In this document: in pieces, positions 2,833 through 63,061 of the stretch
Layout of the letters: every line of letters begins with the position of its first letter
Numbering within the stretch: position 1 is the stretch's first letter
Origin: a virus
Reading direction: 5' to 3' (one strand)
DNA length: 64,000 nt
Virus record (IMG/VR): IMGVR_UViG_3300010370_000034
Location: 1 to 64,000 of that record
Translations under genes and position numbers: made by a program
The notes under the pieces: model-generated
The model's database searches: none
Told to the model about the DNA's origin: nothing
Seen by the model: only the letters and a program-made list of their open reading frames with translations

Positions 2833-5800
2833 TTATGCAAGTGCAATCACTCTTAGATCTTTAATTCTTGGAGGATATGCTTGGTTTGTTGAAGAACCAA
2901 CTATTTTGATACTGAAGTATCTAAATTCTGGTAAAGAATCAATACTAAATTCATAATCTCTGAAAACTAAGTTCGCAGATTCTGCAGATAGAATGTCTGT
3001 TTTTGGTACATTTTTATCTGATTTACCATTATTTTGATTTGGGTTAATAATATTACCATTAACATCAAGATTTTCATATCCTGGGAAAGGATAATAAATT
3101 GGTTCTGCTGCTGGATCATTACTAATTGAGTAGAATACTCTTACATCATTATATGTGTTTACATATGCAGCAAATATTACTTTTATAGAAGTGGCTGCGT
3201 TTTCCAGTTCAATTGGTTGGTTTGCGTATATAAAAGCAGATGGATCTTGATTTATAGTGGAAACTCTAGGATCGTCAATATAATTTGATATTGGATTATC
3301 AATCCTATTAGATACTAAAACCATACCAACTCGGTCTAGATCAATTACAGGAGAAATTTTTGTATTAGAAGTTGATAGGGTAAACGTTAATTCCATGGAT
3401 TTATTTCCAGGGAAATTTGTTGTTTGTTGCAACTCATTTACTCTAGATGCAATTATTCTAGGTTCTGGTAGATAAGTATCTTCGCTTAAGTTGATTGGAG
3501 TTGCCTCGGTTTCAACAAACGAAATCTCATTACCATCAATACTTGTTCCAGTAATTCCTTTTAGGGTTGCTTTGACGGAAGTTCCAGGTAAAACCATTGT
3601 TTGAACAATTGGATTTACGGTTTCATATTGAATATTTTGTGTTGCTAGAATAGTTTCCCCTCCACTTGATTTTGACGAATTGATATACAGTTTAGGAAAT
3701 CCAGAACCAGTAGATCTATCCACTCCGTTTTCACTTGTATCAATACGAATATAGTAACTATCAAGATCAATAGGTCTTCCGACAAGAGCATCTTGTAAAT
3801 AATGAAGTCTATTAATTCTTCTCAAAGAAATGCCATTGTTTTCATATTTTTGTATACTTGTTTTGCTTGGATAACTGAACGCACCAGTTCCTTCAATAGA
3901 TCTTGTAATACCTATTAATTGTCCATTTGCAATACCAGTGTAAGAGATAATTTCATTGTCTAAAAGAGCATATCCTGGATTTGTCGCTCCAACCGATACA
4001 TTTTCAAACACTTCAAATCCAGATGTGTTTGCAATACTAATAGGTCCAGAATCAGAACCATTGTAATCTGCGGTCAATATTGTGGGTTTTGTATCCCCTC
4101 TGGCACCAGAAATTCTTACAACGTTTGTATCAGAATGCATTGCATGGTTCTTATGATTTACTTTAACGTGCAAACCATCTTCAGATAAAGATGCCAACTC
4201 AAAGTCATTAATAATAGAACTTGTTCCAGTTGCATTTAATATTGTAGTAATTCCTGTTGACGCACTTACATATTGTAATGGTTTAGCAGCATTAATTTCA
4301 AATTCACCTTGAACATTATCAAGTATTAATTGATTAACTCCAACGATACTTGATAATGACAATTGAAGATTTCTTCCCAAAATATCATTACCAATTGCAG
4401 GAACAGTTAAAACATCTCCTACTTGATAACCAAATCCACCATCTCGTATAGTTGCTGCAAGAGCAACACCATTAACACCACTTGCTTGTCCAATAGTAAT
4501 ATCTGCTGTAGCATTCTTACCAGTTCCACTGAATGAAGTTAATGGTACATCATTAAATGTGAATGAAGTTCCATTTGATGGTGTATATCCAATACCTGCA
4601 TTAATAATAACTAACGATCCAGTTGCAGATCCACCAGCACCAACATAATCACCACGAGCGTTTGTGTTCTGCTGAACAATTGTGTTTCCAAGAACTAAAG
4701 ATGAAGTATTAACAATATCATTTGTACTAATGATCAATTTTTTGGCATCAAATTCTAAAGCATCTTTTACTAAAGTTGCAATTTGTCTATTGCCTTTATT
4801 TAATTCTGGATTATAGAATGATATCGTTCCAGAATCTGCAGTAAATCCTGCAGAATAAAGATTAAATTTTAGATCTTCGTACTGGCTTGGTGTCCAAGTT
4901 GATCCATTCTGAGACTTAAATAAAGATCCCAAATAAGGTTGTGCCGATACAATAACTTGTCTAGACTCTGGTTGTAATAATGTAGAAATATCAGTTTCAC
5001 CCATTCTTGAAATCCAAACAGTGTATTCATTTGAATTTGATAATAACACTACAGCATGTTCAGTATTTGAGTGTAAGTAAACTGGTGCTGGGAAAGTAAC
5101 TCTTGTAGGTTGAGTCGCATCAAAAGTTTCAAAAACATCAGAAGATTCTACAATTGCTTCGCCAAATGGATATATTTGATCTGAAGGAACACCATTAATC
5201 ATTGGACGCAACTGAACAGTTACGGGCAATAGAGGGTCTTTAGTTCTAAAATAAAGATCTATACTAGTAATAAATGCTCCACCATCATCGTTGATCGAGA
5301 ATGATTGTGCAAGAGGATCTTTACCACCTCTTCTTGGTGGTGGATCGGGTGGACGTGGTGGTGGATCGGGTGGACGTGGTGGTGGATCGGGTGGACGTGG
5401 TGGTGGTGGTGTTACTATTTGTGGTCCTGGTTGTGGAAAACTAGGAGAAGGTCTTGGGGGATCTGGTGGCGGTGGTGGTGGAGGAGGTGGTGGTGGTAAT
5501 GGTGTGATTGACTGTGTTGTTGAATTGCTTATCGTTGTAGTAGACTGAACATCTGTGGCGGGTCTACTTTCGCTCGCAGCAACAACGTCATATCTTGGTT
5601 TTCTAGTGGATCTTATTGTCTCTTGCATGTTATTGATAGATCCAGAAGCAAAATATGCCTCTTGTCCAGATGTAGAGGTTAATCCACCTAAAGTACTATT
5701 TGATGCTTGAGAAGTTAGTCTAAAGATTTTTGTCCCAACCTCAAATGATGGGTTTGATGGTAAATTTGGATCTGGTATAAAGAGTGAACCAAGTACAGTT

Positions 5801-33529: not shown

Positions 33530-33591
33530 CTAGTCGAGATTTGTTAGTGTGATAAACTCGTCGAGATTAAATGTGATAACCTCGACGAGAT
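33530..33591 (-). repeat. Three ATCTCGWCKAG-type palindrome copies (operator-like)
   Basis: On the minus strand, at 33581-33591, 33557-33567 and 33530-33540, are ATCTCGTCGAG, ATCTCGACGAG and ATCTCGACTAG, each followed by GTTATCAC, TTTATCAC or TTTACACC. They form direct repeats 24-27 bp apart in the leader of the 43-aa gene. The same palindrome recurs at 35006 and 36664-36788. Confidence 0.7.
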
Positions 33592-35005: not shown

Positions 35006-35043
35006 TCTCGTCGAGATTTTATGGACAGTCTGTGAACTGTCCA
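35006..35043 (-). repeat. TCTCGTCGAGA palindrome and TGGACAGT inverted repeat
   Basis: 35006-35016 is the 11-bp palindrome TCTCGTCGAGA. Immediately beside it 35022-35029 and 35036-35043 form the inverted repeat TGGACAGT/ACTGTCCA with a six-base loop. AGTGGACAGT also occurs near 35592 and 36123. The pair lies in the leader of the 71-aa gene. Confidence 0.65.
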
Positions 35044-35600: not shown

Positions 35601-36065
35601 TTACGCTGCTGTCACATAGTTGGGGATATCCACCCGCTCAACGGGACCCCACCCGATCTTATATGCTTTCCAGTTGCCATTCAAATCGTACAAATAGGCA
35701 AACTCTTCGCCGCCCATTTTACCAGAGACAAATTGATCAAAATCAGTATGATCAACCTCTAGACTTTCACCACGCTCTGTATGATACAACGGTTGTGCAT
35801 CACGAGTGTGAGAATAAGACCAACTGCCAGCATCATCTTCGATGATTTTACCATTCTCATCCCGAAGAGCAGCACTTTCCCACGTATGAGTTGTGCGAAG
35901 AGATGACATTGAACCACCGTCAATAAGATCTTGAACATCTTCGCGGTTCTGATAATGCTCTACCAGAATCTTACCGTTGTGCTCTACATAACCATCCCAG
36001 TGGCAGTAAACACTCACCACAGAATGATCAGGGAGTTCATAACCGATGCGAGAACGAGTGCCCAT
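35601..36065 (-). CDS. Conserved hypothetical cyanophage protein (154 aa)
   Basis: MGTRSRIGYELPDHSVVSVY, 'CHWDGYVEHNGKILVEHYQN' and 'DLIDGGSMSSL' match a protein type often found in cyanophages. The ATG at 36065 fits this start; an in-frame TTG further upstream adds a Cys-rich leader and is rejected. It is soluble with no evident enzymatic motif. Confidence 0.75.
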   Translation of the reverse strand: MGTRSRIGYELPDHSVVSVYCHWDGYVEHNGKILVEHYQNREDVQDLIDGGSMSSLRTTHTWESAALRDENGKIIEDDAGSWSYSHTRDAQPLYHTERGESLEVDHTDFDQFVSGKMGGEEFAYLYDLNGNWKAYKIGWGPVERVDIPNYVTAA

Positions 36066-36355
36066 TGGAGTTGTGTGTCGGACCCCATTAATATTGCACA
36101 GATCCCACCCCCTGGCAACCCCCAGTGGACAGTCCAATAAACTGGCACATCATCGGTTTTTTTCCGATCTTCTGTGCTATTTTATAAGGACAACCAGCGC
36201 CCTTAGGGGAACGGCAGAGGGGTATCTGCCTGATCAACACATCGACACCGAACCTGCAAACTTTTTTATAAAAAGTATACAAAAACATAAAAAGACCTTA
36301 TGTGCCCCCACCTTGACACATAAGGCCCTTCTATGTTACATTGAGGAGTTACGCC
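36066..36355 (-). other. Gap with a terminator, no clear gene
   Basis: About 290 bases between two genes. It holds the terminator at 36296-36325 and, on the minus strand, a TATAAAA-like AT tract and CCCCAGTGGACAGTCC. An open frame of ~66 codons here has poor codon use and no ribosome site. Confidence 0.5.
36296..36325 (-). terminator. Intrinsic terminator downstream of the 56-aa gene
   Basis: A 9-bp stem CCTTATGTG/CACATAAGG with a 12-base loop, followed on the minus strand by TCTTTTTATG. It ends transcription of the gene at 36356-36526. Confidence 0.75.
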
Positions 36356-36663: not shown

Positions 36664-36788
36664 TCTCGTCGAGATTTCTGATTCTCAATAAGGATTTGTT
36701 ATTGAGAATAAACGCGCACGTCTCGTCGAGATCTTATGAGTCTTGATGCACGTCTCGTCGAGATTGTCAAGCGCCCGTCTAGTCGAGA
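36664..36788. repeat. Four TCTCGTCGAGA palindromes
   Basis: Copies at 36664-36674, 36721-36731, 36753-36763 (all TCTCGTCGAGA) and 36778-36788 (TCTAGTCGAGA). Three are preceded by a CGY dinucleotide context such as GCACGTCTCG. The same element lies upstream of genes at 33.5 and 35.0 kb. Confidence 0.75.
36681..36709. repeat. Perfect 11-bp inverted repeat ATTCTCAATAA / TTATTGAGAAT
   Basis: Arms at 36681-36691 and 36699-36709 with a seven-base spacer. The core ATTCTCAAT is repeated at 36893-36924, in direct and inverted orientation. Confidence 0.7.
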
Positions 36789-37004: not shown

Positions 37005-37277
37005 TTATGTAATAATCACTGGAATTTGATGATTTTCAGGCAATTTATAAATCTTTTGACCTTCTATCTTATAACTCCCTGGTGGTAGTCCTAATTGACC
37101 AGGAAGTGCCTTTGTATCATTTACAGTAATATCAATCACCTGATCATTTAATGGCGTAACTTTACGATATGCTCGATTTGCAGGATTCAATGCTACCATC
37201 ATTTGTGCATCCTCTAGCAATGCACATTGACACACACTCTCTCCTGTATTCAGATTCACAACAACATAATAACTCAC
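37005..37277 (-). CDS. Hypothetical protein downstream of the ketosynthase (90 aa)
   Basis: MSYYVVVNLNTGESVCQCAL is followed by a Pro/Gly-rich C-terminal part 'LGLPPGSYKIEGQKIYKLPE'. The predicted fold is beta-rich. The start overlaps the ketosynthase stop as ATGA, so the genes are coupled, but no fatty-acid-related motif (such as the DSL of an acyl carrier protein) is present. Confidence 0.65.
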   Translation of the reverse strand: MSYYVVVNLNTGESVCQCALLEDAQMMVALNPANRAYRKVTPLNDQVIDITVNDTKALPGQLGLPPGSYKIEGQKIYKLPENHQIPVIIT

Positions 37278-38452
37278 AATTTAACCTCAACAACTTGTGA
37301 TGCACACTTACCACCAAAACCAAATGAGTTATTCATTGTCCTTAGAACTTTTGATGCCTTGAAGCTACGCGGAGTCCTTATCAGTTGCTTTGATACATCA
37401 TACTCTGCTTTTTGAAGATTATAACAATACGGCATCAGTTGATTCTTCATGGAGAGGATAGAGTAAATACATTCCAATACAGATGCAGCAGCAAGCGTAT
37501 GACCAATCTTTGACTTTGGTGCATAAATTGGCGTATCACTCAAATACTCTTGCAATACATTATATTCTACTTCATCACCAATCGGAGTGGATGTAGCATG
37601 TGCAGAAATCACATCAATCGTATCAGGTTCAATGCCATCCAGTGCTTTATCCAGGGCAAGTTTTGCACCAATTCCATTCGTTGCAGGACTGGTCAAATCA
37701 AATGCATCACTGGCACAACCAACTGGATATAACTTAGCATGTACAGTTGACTTATATTGTTGTACTTTGTCTTTTGATTGTAAAATTAAAATACCCGCGC
37801 CTTCTCCCATCACAAACCCTTCACGGTTCTCATCAAAAGGACAATTATGATTACCCAGTGCATTAATACCAGCGAAATACTTCAGTGCCATCTCAAATAC
37901 ACCAGCATCCGCTCCACCCACTACAACATAATCATACTCATCCAAAATCCTCATCGCATAATCAATCGAATACATCCCAGTCGCACAACTTGCATACAGT
38001 GCCACTGATGCCCCGTGAAACTTATAGTGACTCGTAATCTGTCCTACAATCATATCAGGAATACGATTCACAATCTTGAATGGATTCACTCTCTTATTCT
38101 CTTTGAACTTCTGGAAGTTACCATCAAGGAACTCCACATCATTCGATACTGATGATACAATCACTGCAACATTGGATGAATGAGGTAGATTTGCCATCTT
38201 CAGTGCCTGCTCAGTTGCATGAAGTGCCATCTGTTGTGCCCGCGTCATGTTAGCGGTTATTTTCGGCGTAAACGCCTCGGGAAGTAGAATATCATGCAAA
38301 CATGGAATACCATACTGAATCTTATGCTCTCCCATAAAATCTAACTTCTGAACAGAATTGTATTCATTAATCAGATTCAAGAAGCAATCACCAGGATTAT
38401 TTCCCAGTGCATCAATCATCCCATAACCTACAACATACGCAGGATTGACCAT
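37274..38452 (-). CDS. Beta-ketoacyl-ACP synthase (KAS I/II type)
   Basis: The 392-aa protein is a decarboxylating condensing enzyme of the FabF/FabB type. The catalytic triad is visible: Cys156 in 'YASCATGMYSIDYAM', His285 in 'SAHATSTPIGDEVEY' and His318 in 'KSKIGHTLAAASVLE'. The KSxxGH and GEGAG (216-220) motifs are also present. FabF is usually about 410 aa, so length is near normal. It condenses acyl-ACP or acyl-enzyme with malonyl-ACP, normally in fatty-acid elongation. No acyl carrier protein, reductase or dehydratase is present nearby, so it would have to work with host enzymes or make a polyketide-like product. This is an unusual gene in a tailed phage. Confidence 0.9.
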   Translation of the reverse strand: MVNPAYVVGYGMIDALGNNPGDCFLNLINEYNSVQKLDFMGEHKIQYGIPCLHDILLPEAFTPKITANMTRAQQMALHATEQALKMANLPHSSNVAVIVSSVSNDVEFLDGNFQKFKENKRVNPFKIVNRIPDMIVGQITSHYKFHGASVALYASCATGMYSIDYAMRILDEYDYVVVGGADAGVFEMALKYFAGINALGNHNCPFDENREGFVMGEGAGILILQSKDKVQQYKSTVHAKLYPVGCASDAFDLTSPATNGIGAKLALDKALDGIEPDTIDVISAHATSTPIGDEVEYNVLQEYLSDTPIYAPKSKIGHTLAAASVLECIYSILSMKNQLMPYCYNLQKAEYDVSKQLIRTPRSFKASKVLRTMNNSFGFGGKCASQVVEVKL

Positions 38453-38460
38453 AATCTGTA

Positions 38461-38664
38461 CTAACCTCCAAATCCCTTGACTGGTTTCTTCTTCTCTATT
38501 CTATCAAGAACTTCTACATGTGACAACCCATCAGATTGCATCCATACCTGATACACTTCCATATAATCCTCTACAATAATACGCTCACCCTGATTGGATA
38601 CAATCGCATAACGATGTTTGTCATACGGTGCATCTGATGTACCAGTGAAGTTCCTCAATTTCAT
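38461..38664 (-). CDS. Small protein (67 aa)
   Basis: MKLRNFTGTSDAPYDKHRYA is followed by 'QGERIIVEDYMEVYQVWMQS', a beta-hairpin and helix. It overlaps its neighbour by four bases and lies eight bases upstream of the ketosynthase, so they are probably one operon. Confidence 0.65.
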   Translation of the reverse strand: MKLRNFTGTSDAPYDKHRYAIVSNQGERIIVEDYMEVYQVWMQSDGLSHVEVLDRIEKKKPVKGFGG

Positions 38665-60031: not shown

Positions 60032-60814
60032 TTACCCAATCCGCAACCCAGAAATTACTTTTTCTGCGGCAAGTTGATTTGTCTTCTCTCCTGGATGTGC
60101 GGCATAATATCCAGACTTTTGCTTCCTCATGTCTCTGGCAAAATCAATTTGATTTACAAAAGTGCATTGTAAAATCTGAGCAGTGTTTTGGTATAAACTT
60201 AACTCAAAATAATTAGTTCTATTTTTCCACATTTCTCTAAATGATATAACATTTAACTTCAATTGCATCATTGCATTATCTTTATTTTCATTCCAGTAAT
60301 ATCCTATTTTAAATTTATCATAATTCCAATTACCACAGTTCATAACTCTATCATCCGTGTAATATGGTAACCTATATGGGGAAGTCCATAAACTTACAAC
60401 CGCTTTTGGTGTCGGATATGATTCACTCAATAATGCAGAATTATGAAGAGTATATAATGAGGATGATCCTGGAGCTCCCAAATTAATTACAGGAATGTTA
60501 AGTGCTTCTTGTATTTTATGCGATATCGTATCTTCCTCAGGTAACCCAACACCAAAAACGGAGGAATCTCCAAAAACTACAATTGATTTTGCCCAGTTAA
60601 TTTTATCAAATTCTTTTGTTCGATATCCAGCACTATTAATATTATATTCAAATGTTTTTGTTCTATATCTCCAATCTTCTGGAAGTTCTTTTAAATTTTT
60701 TTGATATAACTCTTCACTATCTTGATCAAACCACTTGTGAACTCCGACGAGTAATTCTTTATTTGGAAGCAGTAGTTTATTATCAATTCTTTCAGTTAAT
60801 TTTAATATTGTCAT
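60032..60814 (-). CDS. SGNH-hydrolase-like protein B (260 aa)
   Basis: It has a clear GDS block 'SIVVFGDSSVFGVGLPEEDT', 'IPVINLGAPGSS', and a C-terminal 'YYAAHPGEKTNQLAAEKVIS' with His but with Tyr/Ala where the Asp of D-x-x-H would be. Compared with protein A, the missing residue lies in the other block. 'INSAGYRTKEF' is shared. It overlaps the carbamoyltransferase by four bases, so it is in the same operon and may act on the same sugar. Confidence 0.75.
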   Translation of the reverse strand: MTILKLTERIDNKLLLPNKELLVGVHKWFDQDSEELYQKNLKELPEDWRYRTKTFEYNINSAGYRTKEFDKINWAKSIVVFGDSSVFGVGLPEEDTISHKIQEALNIPVINLGAPGSSSLYTLHNSALLSESYPTPKAVVSLWTSPYRLPYYTDDRVMNCGNWNYDKFKIGYYWNENKDNAMMQLKLNVISFREMWKNRTNYFELSLYQNTAQILQCTFVNQIDFARDMRKQKSGYYAAHPGEKTNQLAAEKVISGLRIG

Positions 60815-62235
60815 GAAAATATTGGAATATTATGAAGTCTAGACCATTTATCACAATCAATCTCGTCATTTAAAATAGGTTGTCCTTTAATATTTAAACT
60901 AGTATTTAAAAGCATTGGATGACCAGTTTTTGCCTTCCATTGATATAAAAGATTATAAAGTCGAGGAGCATCACTCTTTTTAACGGTTTGCAATCGACTC
61001 GTTCCATCAACATGCACAATTCCAGGAAACTTCTCTGGATACTTACACCTAACAGCATGTTGCATAAAGGGACTCTCTACCAAGTCATGATGCATATCAA
61101 AATAAGTGTTAGCAAATTCTATAGGAACAACTGGAGAAAATGGTCGATATGATTCTCTATTTTTTATTTTGTTGACTTTATCTTTTATATCTGGATCAGT
61201 TGGGTCTGCGATGAGACTTCTTGCACCTAATGCTCTTGGTCCAAACTCTGCTCTACCTCTTGCAAGACCACAAACTTTATGTTCTTGAAGATAATTTACT
61301 ATTTGTGCATTTGTATGTTTATGTGGCAAATAATATCCAAGATATGGGGTAAATTTTATATGCTTCTTTTTATGTGCCAATACAGCACCAATCGCAGACC
61401 CACTATCTCCTGGTGCAGGCATGATCCAAACATTCTTAAAATAATTGTAAGTATGCTTATTTGCAACACAGTTTAGAGCACATCCACCCATTAAGACAAG
61501 ATTATTTGTCTGCACTAATTTTTTAGCAAGTCTCAGCGCATTATTGAACAATATCTCATACACTTCTTGTGTAGCTGCTGCAATATCTTCATTTGATTCC
61601 TCAGGTCTCCAATCTTTGCATCCTCGATGTAGATTAACCTTACATTTAAAATCTTCAGTTATAAAGTCATCAAAAATAGCGTCTTTTAATTTATGTTTAT
61701 CCCCTAAAGCGGACAATGCCATTAAAATATATTCTTCCTCATTCGGTTTTAATCCACATCGCTGAGTCATTGCAGAATACAACAATCCCACACTATTTGG
61801 ATACTTCAATTGATATTTTAACTTTAAATCTTTACCAGATGCTTCCCAGATTGTAAGTGTCTGGAACTCTCCTATTGCATCTATTACTAAAATGGCAGCA
61901 TGTTTGAATTTACTAGTAAAGTACCCTCCGCAAGCATGGGTGTAATGATGACCAAAAAATTTGTGCTTACATTCATAATATCTTTCAAAGTTATTAATAA
62001 ATGGTCCTTGCCCAGCATAAATTTGCCGCATCCTTTTCTTCAAAGGATTCTCATACCAACAAATTAATTCTGGTTTTCCATATCTTAGTGCATATTTCAG
62101 CATTGATTCTGAGATATATGCATCATTCTTGATTTTACTAAAACGTTCACTCTCACTGGCGAATACCAATTCGTCTTTTACAAACACCGACATAGCGGCG
62201 TTATGACTGTTAGATGATATTCCCCAGGTGATCAT
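60811..62235 (-). CDS. Carbamoyltransferase (NodU/TobZ family)
   Basis: The 474-aa protein carries family motifs: 'GISSNSHNAAMSVFV' (His11), 'FFGHHYTHACGGYF' (H96/H97/H100), 'LMGGCALNCVANKHTY', and 'ARGRAEFGPRALGARSLIAD'. Family members use carbamoyl phosphate and ATP to put a carbamoyl group on a sugar or antibiotic hydroxyl. It is a little shorter than the usual ~570 aa. It overlaps the radical SAM and SGNH genes, forming one operon. The acceptor is unknown; a virion or host glycan is plausible. Confidence 0.88.
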   Translation of the reverse strand: MITWGISSNSHNAAMSVFVKDELVFASESERFSKIKNDAYISESMLKYALRYGKPELICWYENPLKKRMRQIYAGQGPFINNFERYYECKHKFFGHHYTHACGGYFTSKFKHAAILVIDAIGEFQTLTIWEASGKDLKLKYQLKYPNSVGLLYSAMTQRCGLKPNEEEYILMALSALGDKHKLKDAIFDDFITEDFKCKVNLHRGCKDWRPEESNEDIAAATQEVYEILFNNALRLAKKLVQTNNLVLMGGCALNCVANKHTYNYFKNVWIMPAPGDSGSAIGAVLAHKKKHIKFTPYLGYYLPHKHTNAQIVNYLQEHKVCGLARGRAEFGPRALGARSLIADPTDPDIKDKVNKIKNRESYRPFSPVVPIEFANTYFDMHHDLVESPFMQHAVRCKYPEKFPGIVHVDGTSRLQTVKKSDAPRLYNLLYQWKAKTGHPMLLNTSLNIKGQPILNDEIDCDKWSRLHNIPIFS

Positions 62236-63061
62236 ATTTTTTCTCCCAATAACTTACTGGTAGTGTTGGATCTTCTTTAACAAAATTCTTAACCTTATTT
62301 GCGGGACACATTGAACAATATGATTCGTCCTCTCTACCCAAAAACTCTTCTAATTCATCATCCGTGCAATTTACATCTAAAGGAGTATATTTGAGATATG
62401 GTTCCCACCTATCACTAAGGTTGTATTTTTCAGATTGCATCGGTAAATATGCCAATGCAGGACACTTCCAAAGTTTATTCTCATGCAATTGGATAGCATG
62501 TTTAGAGATGCAATTTTCCCAACTCTTACGAGGATTGTTATCTTCGTAAGGAGTTATATTTGAACCAAACCCTTTATATTGAGGAGTCCAATGCTCATTA
62601 GTATAATCCCAAAATTCAACATGAACTCCAAGGTCATGCTTCCACTGTTTAGCAAGATTATATCCAGTTTTAAACTTTTTTACGTAATCTTTATGAGTTG
62701 TACTGTGAATTGATATTGCAAGGTTAGTTTGAGTCGCAATTAGTGCTTTTGGTAACTTTGGATGTAAGTGTAAAAAACTAGCATTTGAAACCAAATCAAT
62801 TTGAGTATATGGATCAGGATATATCATCCTCACCAAATATACAATATCAACCAATTCTTTGTTAAGAGTTGGTTCACCGCCAAGTATAACAAATGTTTTG
62901 GGTCTGACTCTCTGACCCCAAATATATAGCCATTCTTTTGCGGTTTCTAGATTTAGTGTTCCAGAATGCCCATGGTTAGAATAATGTGAGCACCCTTCAC
63001 ATGAAAAATTACAGGCATGGGTAACATGCAATTCTATTTGTTTGGTATCAAACTGCTTCAT
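62210..63061 (-). CDS. Radical SAM protein
   Basis: The 283-aa protein has the radical SAM motif Cys17-x3-Cys21-x2-Cys24 ('HACNFSCEGCSHYSNHG') and 'VILGGEPTLNKELVD' (GGEP at 61-64). Further Cys in the C-terminal half (around 'CISKHAIQLHENKLWKCPAL' and 'YCSMCPANK') suggest an auxiliary Fe-S site of the SPASM or twitch type. Overlaps the 2OG gene as ATGA and the carbamoyltransferase by 26 bases. Its substrate is unknown. Confidence 0.88.
   Translation of the reverse strand: MKQFDTKQIELHVTHACNFSCEGCSHYSNHGHSGTLNLETAKEWLYIWGQRVRPKTFVILGGEPTLNKELVDIVYLVRMIYPDPYTQIDLVSNASFLHLHPKLPKALIATQTNLAISIHSTTHKDYVKKFKTGYNLAKQWKHDLGVHVEFWDYTNEHWTPQYKGFGSNITPYEDNNPRKSWENCISKHAIQLHENKLWKCPALAYLPMQSEKYNLSDRWEPYLKYTPLDVNCTDDELEEFLGREDESYCSMCPANKVKNFVKEDPTLPVSYWEKKYDHLGNII

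Follow-up and report, generated by a model that had tools for sequence, protein, structure and literature searches.

The locus considered here raises the question of what a beta-ketoacyl-acyl carrier protein (ACP) synthase (KS), an enzyme that condenses acyl chains, would do in the genome of a T4-like phage whose record carries no recognised partner for it. The stretch of DNA analysed (hereafter the window) comprises 64,000 nucleotides, positions 1 to 64,000 of the 69.8-kb IMG/VR virus record IMGVR_UViG_3300010370_000034. The first-pass annotation of its sequence had described a stand-alone, active ketosynthase in a T4-like cyanophage, and suggested that the enzyme might redirect host acyl chains, for example to change membrane lipids, or make a polyketide-like product. 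The gene and its immediate layout are as follows:

37274..38452, minus strand: FabF-type beta-ketoacyl-ACP synthase (KS), 392 amino acids, ATG start
37985..37987, minus strand: codon of the nucleophile Cys156 in the ASCATG motif, aligned with the FabF active site
37598..37600, minus strand: codon of His285 in the HATSTP motif, invariant in 47 of 47 viral KS
37499..37501, minus strand: codon of His318 in the KSKIGH motif (with Lys313), invariant in 47 of 47 viral KS
38465..38469, minus strand: Shine-Dalgarno GGAGG as read from the sequence, 12 nt 5' of the KS start and within the terminal part of the gene upstream
38461..38664, minus strand: small phage gene (phrog_897) upstream of the KS, its end 8 nt from the KS start
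37005..37277, minus strand: 90-aa open reading frame downstream of the KS, overlapping the KS stop by 4 nt
35601..36137, minus strand: phage gene (phrog_1987), the next conserved one downstream of the KS

The plus strand of 37274-38452 is full of stops, with the KS frame open on the minus strand, and full-length homology together with dN/dS values of 0.09-0.31 among close viral relatives shows that the gene is not a chance open reading frame. As first described, it is embedded among small phage genes. In L002-L005, too (L-numbers denote loci of viral KS relatives), the KS is preceded by a small gene of the ORF cluster to which the phrog_897 gene belongs, and the 90-aa frame behind the KS is conserved at the same place in L001 and L002. 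A near-palindromic 11-mer, TCTCGACGAGA, is clustered between genes of the window at 36664-36674, 36721-36731, 36753-36763, 36778-36788, 35006-35016, and 33556-33590, with 11 matches (both strands, one mismatch counted) against 0.31 expected by chance; the same word is also present in L001, L002, and Synechococcus phage S-SRM01, and these phages may have in it a common protein-binding site or an element resembling a terminator.

The family assignment of the protein is consistent across methods. Pfam ketoacyl-synt N-terminal (E = 1.6e-25) and C-terminal (E = 3e-22) domains span its full length, and its best NCBIfam model is fabF, at 247 bits over the full length of the protein; because this score falls below the equivalog cut-off of 494 (493.75) bits, we refer to the protein as FabF-type and not as a FabF orthologue. 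The best polyketide KS model reaches 132 bits, and across the viral clade the fabF model is matched by all 44 of the 44 members scanned, with polyketide KS models matching more weakly. FabF from Gram-positive bacteria lead the PDB sequence matches. A profile search of the PDB returned FabF with the top scores (257 bits), and an AlphaFold2 model of the protein (mean pLDDT 93.7) has best PDB matches that are all FabF, with TM scores of 0.91-0.94 at a sequence identity of 25-29%. In a library of viral structures, just two proteins resemble the model well, at 18-22% identity. A chalcone-synthase-like (type III polyketide synthase) or thiolase identity, which the first-pass annotation had named as an outcome of a tree that would refute its reading, is ruled out by score and fold; tree and fold both place the KS next to FabF.

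The active site is likewise intact. Cys156, His285, His318, Lys313, Asp293, Phe377, and Phe379 are invariant in all 47 non-redundant viral KS, the phenylalanines of the GFGG loop among them. The assignment of C156, H285, H318, GEGAG (216-220), and KSxxGH (313-318) made from the sequence was correct: these elements align with the FabF active site and are invariant in close relatives, so that the Cys-His-His triad survives in a full alignment. With triad, fold, and dN/dS in agreement, the window gene is an intact, selected gene with the fold and active site of FabF, and its product is predicted to be catalytically competent, a condensing enzyme of the KAS II (FabF) kind that elongates acyl chains.

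The phage itself conforms to its original description as a T4-like cyanophage. Neck and baseplate genes of T4-like type are present on its record, Synechococcus and Prochlorococcus phages have baseplate wedge proteins 54-55% identical to its own, and DNA and protein matches are to Synechococcus phages. The phrog_1987 gene, which lies 1.1 kb downstream of the KS, has counterparts with 70.5% identity in S-SRM01, from Serangoon Reservoir, and with 65% identity in DSL-LC03, from Dishui Lake. From these matches and this synteny, and from the contig of L003, which carries psbA, psbD, and a KS 71% identical to that of the window, we infer a cyanobacterial host. Because the lake and reservoir Synechococcus phages S-SRM01 and DSL-LC03 keep the KS-flanking genes and have no KS at this place, the KS is an accessory gene, placed among small genes in a part of the genome that varies. 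The ACP, desaturase, SDR reductase (FabG/FabI type), and AcpS families have no member on the whole 69.8-kb record, which stands for a genome expected to run to 170-240 kb, in line with the earlier remark that no ACP or reductase lies nearby. Elsewhere in the window, the first half of the protein encoded at 54258-55412 matches PHROG ferrochelatase families and its second half 2OG-Fe(II) oxygenase/endonuclease-like families, and a Nol-like carbamoyltransferase gene (60811-62235) overlaps a radical-SAM-like gene (62210-63061).

The KS is not peculiar to one phage, as a phage fabF has been named in freshwater pelagimyophages (PMC7029224) and the IMG/VR contigs found to encode relatives rose from 7 to 11 and then, with broader queries, to at least 80. 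The IMG/VR search, in which the contigs are uncultured, confirmed 243 of 303 candidates as relatives; the best 80 of these 243, which were kept, are 43-93% identical to the window KS. No KS orthologue was found in isolate phages among 50,697 phage records. The 28 "phage" records with KS matches are less than 35% identical and were not counted in the viral clade; the ones looked at more closely proved to be wastewater contigs of unverified status, a bacterial shotgun contig, records with bacterial-looking neighbours, or a P2-like prophage with FabB. The wastewater contigs OR844991, OR846591, OR848703, and similar ones, and the bacterial shotgun contig AGRM01000005, look like bacterial contamination.

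In a tree of 95 KS (a quick search with cellular rows picked by a FabF-like pattern, in which the L011 row is very long and the program warned of long branches meeting), a single branch, with support 100, sets off all 46 viral sequences, and the stem leading to them measures 2.37 changes per site. Relative to these pattern-selected cellular FabF, the viral KS form a separate clade on a long stem, and photosynthetic-type cyanobacterial FabF, at 27-35% identity, group elsewhere. A virus-only clade is thus well supported by the phylogeny among the sequences compared. Scanning GTDB with patterns from close viral relatives gave no match, and a broader scan gave ordinary FabF only, at 27-36% identity, among the matches listed. 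Across 292 genomes of the cyanobacteria-containing phylum, the best profile matches were small-genome members that group with Melainabacteria, and not photosynthetic-type FabF. The search for a host donor proposed at the outset therefore yielded none, and the separate clade and the 27-35% identity to cyanobacterial FabF rule out a recent capture from a cyanobacterium.

Such long divergence is accompanied by specific departures from cellular FabF. Among positions 64, 67, 68, 120, 121, and 197, which we take to face the ACP as in FabF-ACP structures, the basic residues K64, K120 (K or R in 43 of 46), and R121 (46 of 46) are mostly kept in viral KS, whereas at positions 67, 68, and 197 viral KS mostly lack the basic residue that almost every cellular FabF in the comparison has. 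The viral enzymes also share a deletion of about six residues in the loop before PFD (residues 203-205 of the window KS), and Ser103 of the window KS aligns with the acyl-pocket Ile of FabF, as far as the alignment indicates. With the basic patch partly lost, docking to host ACP may differ; taken together, the mostly non-basic positions 67/68/197, the shorter PFD loop, and Ser103 mean that docking or substrate range may be altered. These same changes, along with a stem of some 2.4 changes per site, could be read to mean that the KS has become a condensing enzyme for a particular viral or unusual ACP-linked substrate, for example a chain that is branched, hydroxylated, or very long, or that it is a malonyl-ACP decarboxylase that starts synthesis. 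However, a decarboxylase of the KSQ type (Cys to Gln) is excluded by the invariance of Cys156 and both histidines, and the fold is that of FabF throughout, so that we regard this reading as unlikely.

What such an enzyme might be for is suggested by the neighbours of the gene in relatives. The term "stand-alone" holds for the window and fails further afield: no fatty-acid partner gene was seen in the window or its closest relatives, and the neighbourhood argument is for that reason borrowed from relatives 35-57% identical, in which the KS overlaps or neighbours desaturases, ACP, FabI, or an AcpS-like gene. In L011 and L012, the KS is followed by a membrane fatty-acid desaturase with a 4-bp overlap. 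In L113, the KS and an acyl-ACP desaturase gene (PF03405) overlap and a PhyH oxygenase gene comes next, with an acyl carrier protein gene 4 kb upstream and, 7 kb downstream, a short protein that reads by eye as a ferredoxin and matched no NCBIfam model. Two genes lie at most 5 kb from the KS in the contigs of L150, L151, L154, and L157, one encoding an AcpS-like protein and the other FabI, whose best model scores 262 bits, short of the equivalog cut-off; a DesA-like desaturase is also recognised in the contigs of L150 and L154. In all four contigs these genes stand close together upstream of the KS, in L150 at 3073-5718. We consider L150:3073-5718, together with the contigs of L151, L154, and L157, to be a candidate viral fatty-acid gene cluster. 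L117 has a DesA-like desaturase 3 kb upstream of the KS, and a SAM-decarboxylase gene as well; the L117 and L150 contigs carry phrog_107, a T4-type exonuclease family, and that of L150 also PhoH. Using Pfam alone, 5 of 9 contigs have a desaturase at most 5 kb from the KS, where 2.2 would be expected (P = 0.035). Because this co-location statistic is weak, the case rests on the overlapping KS-desaturase pairs and the FabI/AcpS-like linkage, to which we would give more weight.

Other genes also recur around the viral KS. Asp/Asn beta-hydroxylase-like genes stand directly behind it in L006 (6914-7555), L009 (11169-12466), L116, L138, and L142, with runs of two or three in some cases. Four consecutive open reading frames of 190-206 aa, apparently tandem copies, lie immediately upstream of the KS in L112 (5711-8000); the KS is preceded by members of this ORF cluster in 11 loci, and those scanned are without a Pfam match.

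The occurrence of 2OG oxygenase and Asp/Asn hydroxylase-like genes beside the KS in several relatives bears on the second of the roles originally proposed, in which the enzyme would condense acyl units into a polyketide-like or specialised small molecule (a signal, pigment, or toxin) and not into membrane fatty acid. Polyketide KS models do match the viral proteins, and the KSKIGHTLAAA region is closer to the wording of polyketide KS than to the KSMTGHLLGA usual in bacterial FabF. Nevertheless, the fabF score stands far above that of any polyketide KS model, the neighbours scanned included no recognisable acyltransferase, chain-length factor, or cyclase, and the acyl enzymes near viral KS are of fatty-acid type (FabI, desaturase, ACP, AcpS-like). 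Since some KS relatives sit among fatty-acid genes, type-II fatty-acid elongation is favoured over polyketide formation; a change to acyl chains survives as the preferred role, and a polyketide-like product appears distinctly unlikely.

It is likely, in our assessment, that the KS is an accessory KAS II-like elongation enzyme that would use host acyl-ACP and malonyl-ACP and shift fatty-acid chain length or flux in infection. During infection, host acyl-ACP would pass its acyl chain to Cys156, His285 and His318 would support malonyl-ACP decarboxylation and condensation, and the 3-oxoacyl-ACP product would be finished by host FabG, FabZ, and FabI; the result would be more elongation, or an altered chain-length or unsaturation pattern, in the fatty acids destined for membrane lipids. 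Because the 69.8-kb record holds no partner, the window KS would need host ACP, FabG, FabZ, and FabI, whereas related phages would bring partners of their own (desaturases, ACP, an AcpS-like phosphopantetheinyl transferase, or FabI). Given an intact elongation enzyme and fatty-acid genes beside some relatives, infection by KS-bearing viruses probably changes the fatty acids of the cell; we infer the catalysis, its product, the use of host ACP, the effect on lipids, and the benefit to the phage. An inert decoy that binds and sequesters acyl-ACP without condensing would suit a window without partner genes, and T4-like phages have many host-takeover proteins, but the catalytic residues are all invariant across very diverged members and a binding-only role needs none of them, making this very improbable. 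Although several "phage" records hold host-derived KS genes, we give virtually no credence to host contamination or a chimaeric contig here, as phage genes flank the KS on both sides with synteny to S-SRM01 and DSL-LC03 around it, at least 80 viral contigs encode relatives, and the viral clade is absent from the GTDB genomes searched.

A bolder extension of the elongation reading, which we advance tentatively and think considerably less probable than its opposite, is that T4-like aquatic phages own a separate, ancient condensing-enzyme lineage with altered ACP docking and pocket, kept as one element of a viral fatty-acid pathway built from modules, in which the KS is combined variously with FabI, an AcpS-like enzyme, ACP, and desaturases and which would make lipids the host would not.

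To our knowledge, most of the known phage genes that act on fatty acids encode desaturases. If the KS works as inferred, phage action on fatty acids would extend to chain elongation, with a long-diverged enzyme of the phages' own; T4-like phages of cyanobacteria and probably of SAR11 would be involved, some adding FabI, an AcpS-like enzyme, or ACP, and phage rebuilding of membrane lipids in the most abundant aquatic bacteria would become directly testable. Phage fabF genes have been listed before (PMC7029224, PMC8224337, PMC5704599, PMC10653327, PMC12783922). A literature search that covered few subscription papers gave no description of a cyanophage ketosynthase, and the literature searched held none of the viral KS clade or of its link to FabI, AcpS-like, and desaturase genes.

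Among known systems, the window KS is most like FabF/KAS II (TIGR03150; PDB 4ls5, 1kas, 3o04), with full-length homology, the Cys-His-His triad, the Lys before GH, the GFGG gating loop, and the close structural match given above. It differs in its identity of 25-31%, half the equivalog score, a length of 392 aa against about 413 aa with a shorter loop before PFD, the loss of most basic residues at positions 67/68 and 197, and its place in a virus-only clade. Viral type III polyketide synthases (BFVD A0A5K0UBM6, D0UWK5) have the thiolase-superfamily fold in common with it but are distant fold matches only (TM 0.43-0.48). Rhodobacteraceae prophages carry fabG-acpP-fabF gene sets (PMC8224337) that are alike, by description, in placing FabF on a predicted phage; that set has the same order as the E. 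coli fab genes and may be host-derived. In freshwater pelagimyophages of group PMP-D, fabF was annotated together with a stearoyl-CoA desaturase and speH, in one sentence and with no clade, active-site, or neighbourhood analysis (PMC7029224). The L117 group, with a KS 54% identical to ours and desaturase-like and SAM-decarboxylase genes, probably corresponds by this description to those phages, which have a different host group from the window's cyanophage. Cyanophages also encode lipid desaturases (Roitman et al. 2018, ISME J 12:343-355, as cited in PMC11480375): as far as that citation conveys, these too are auxiliary genes acting on fatty acids, but they desaturate finished chains, whereas the KS would act in chain elongation.
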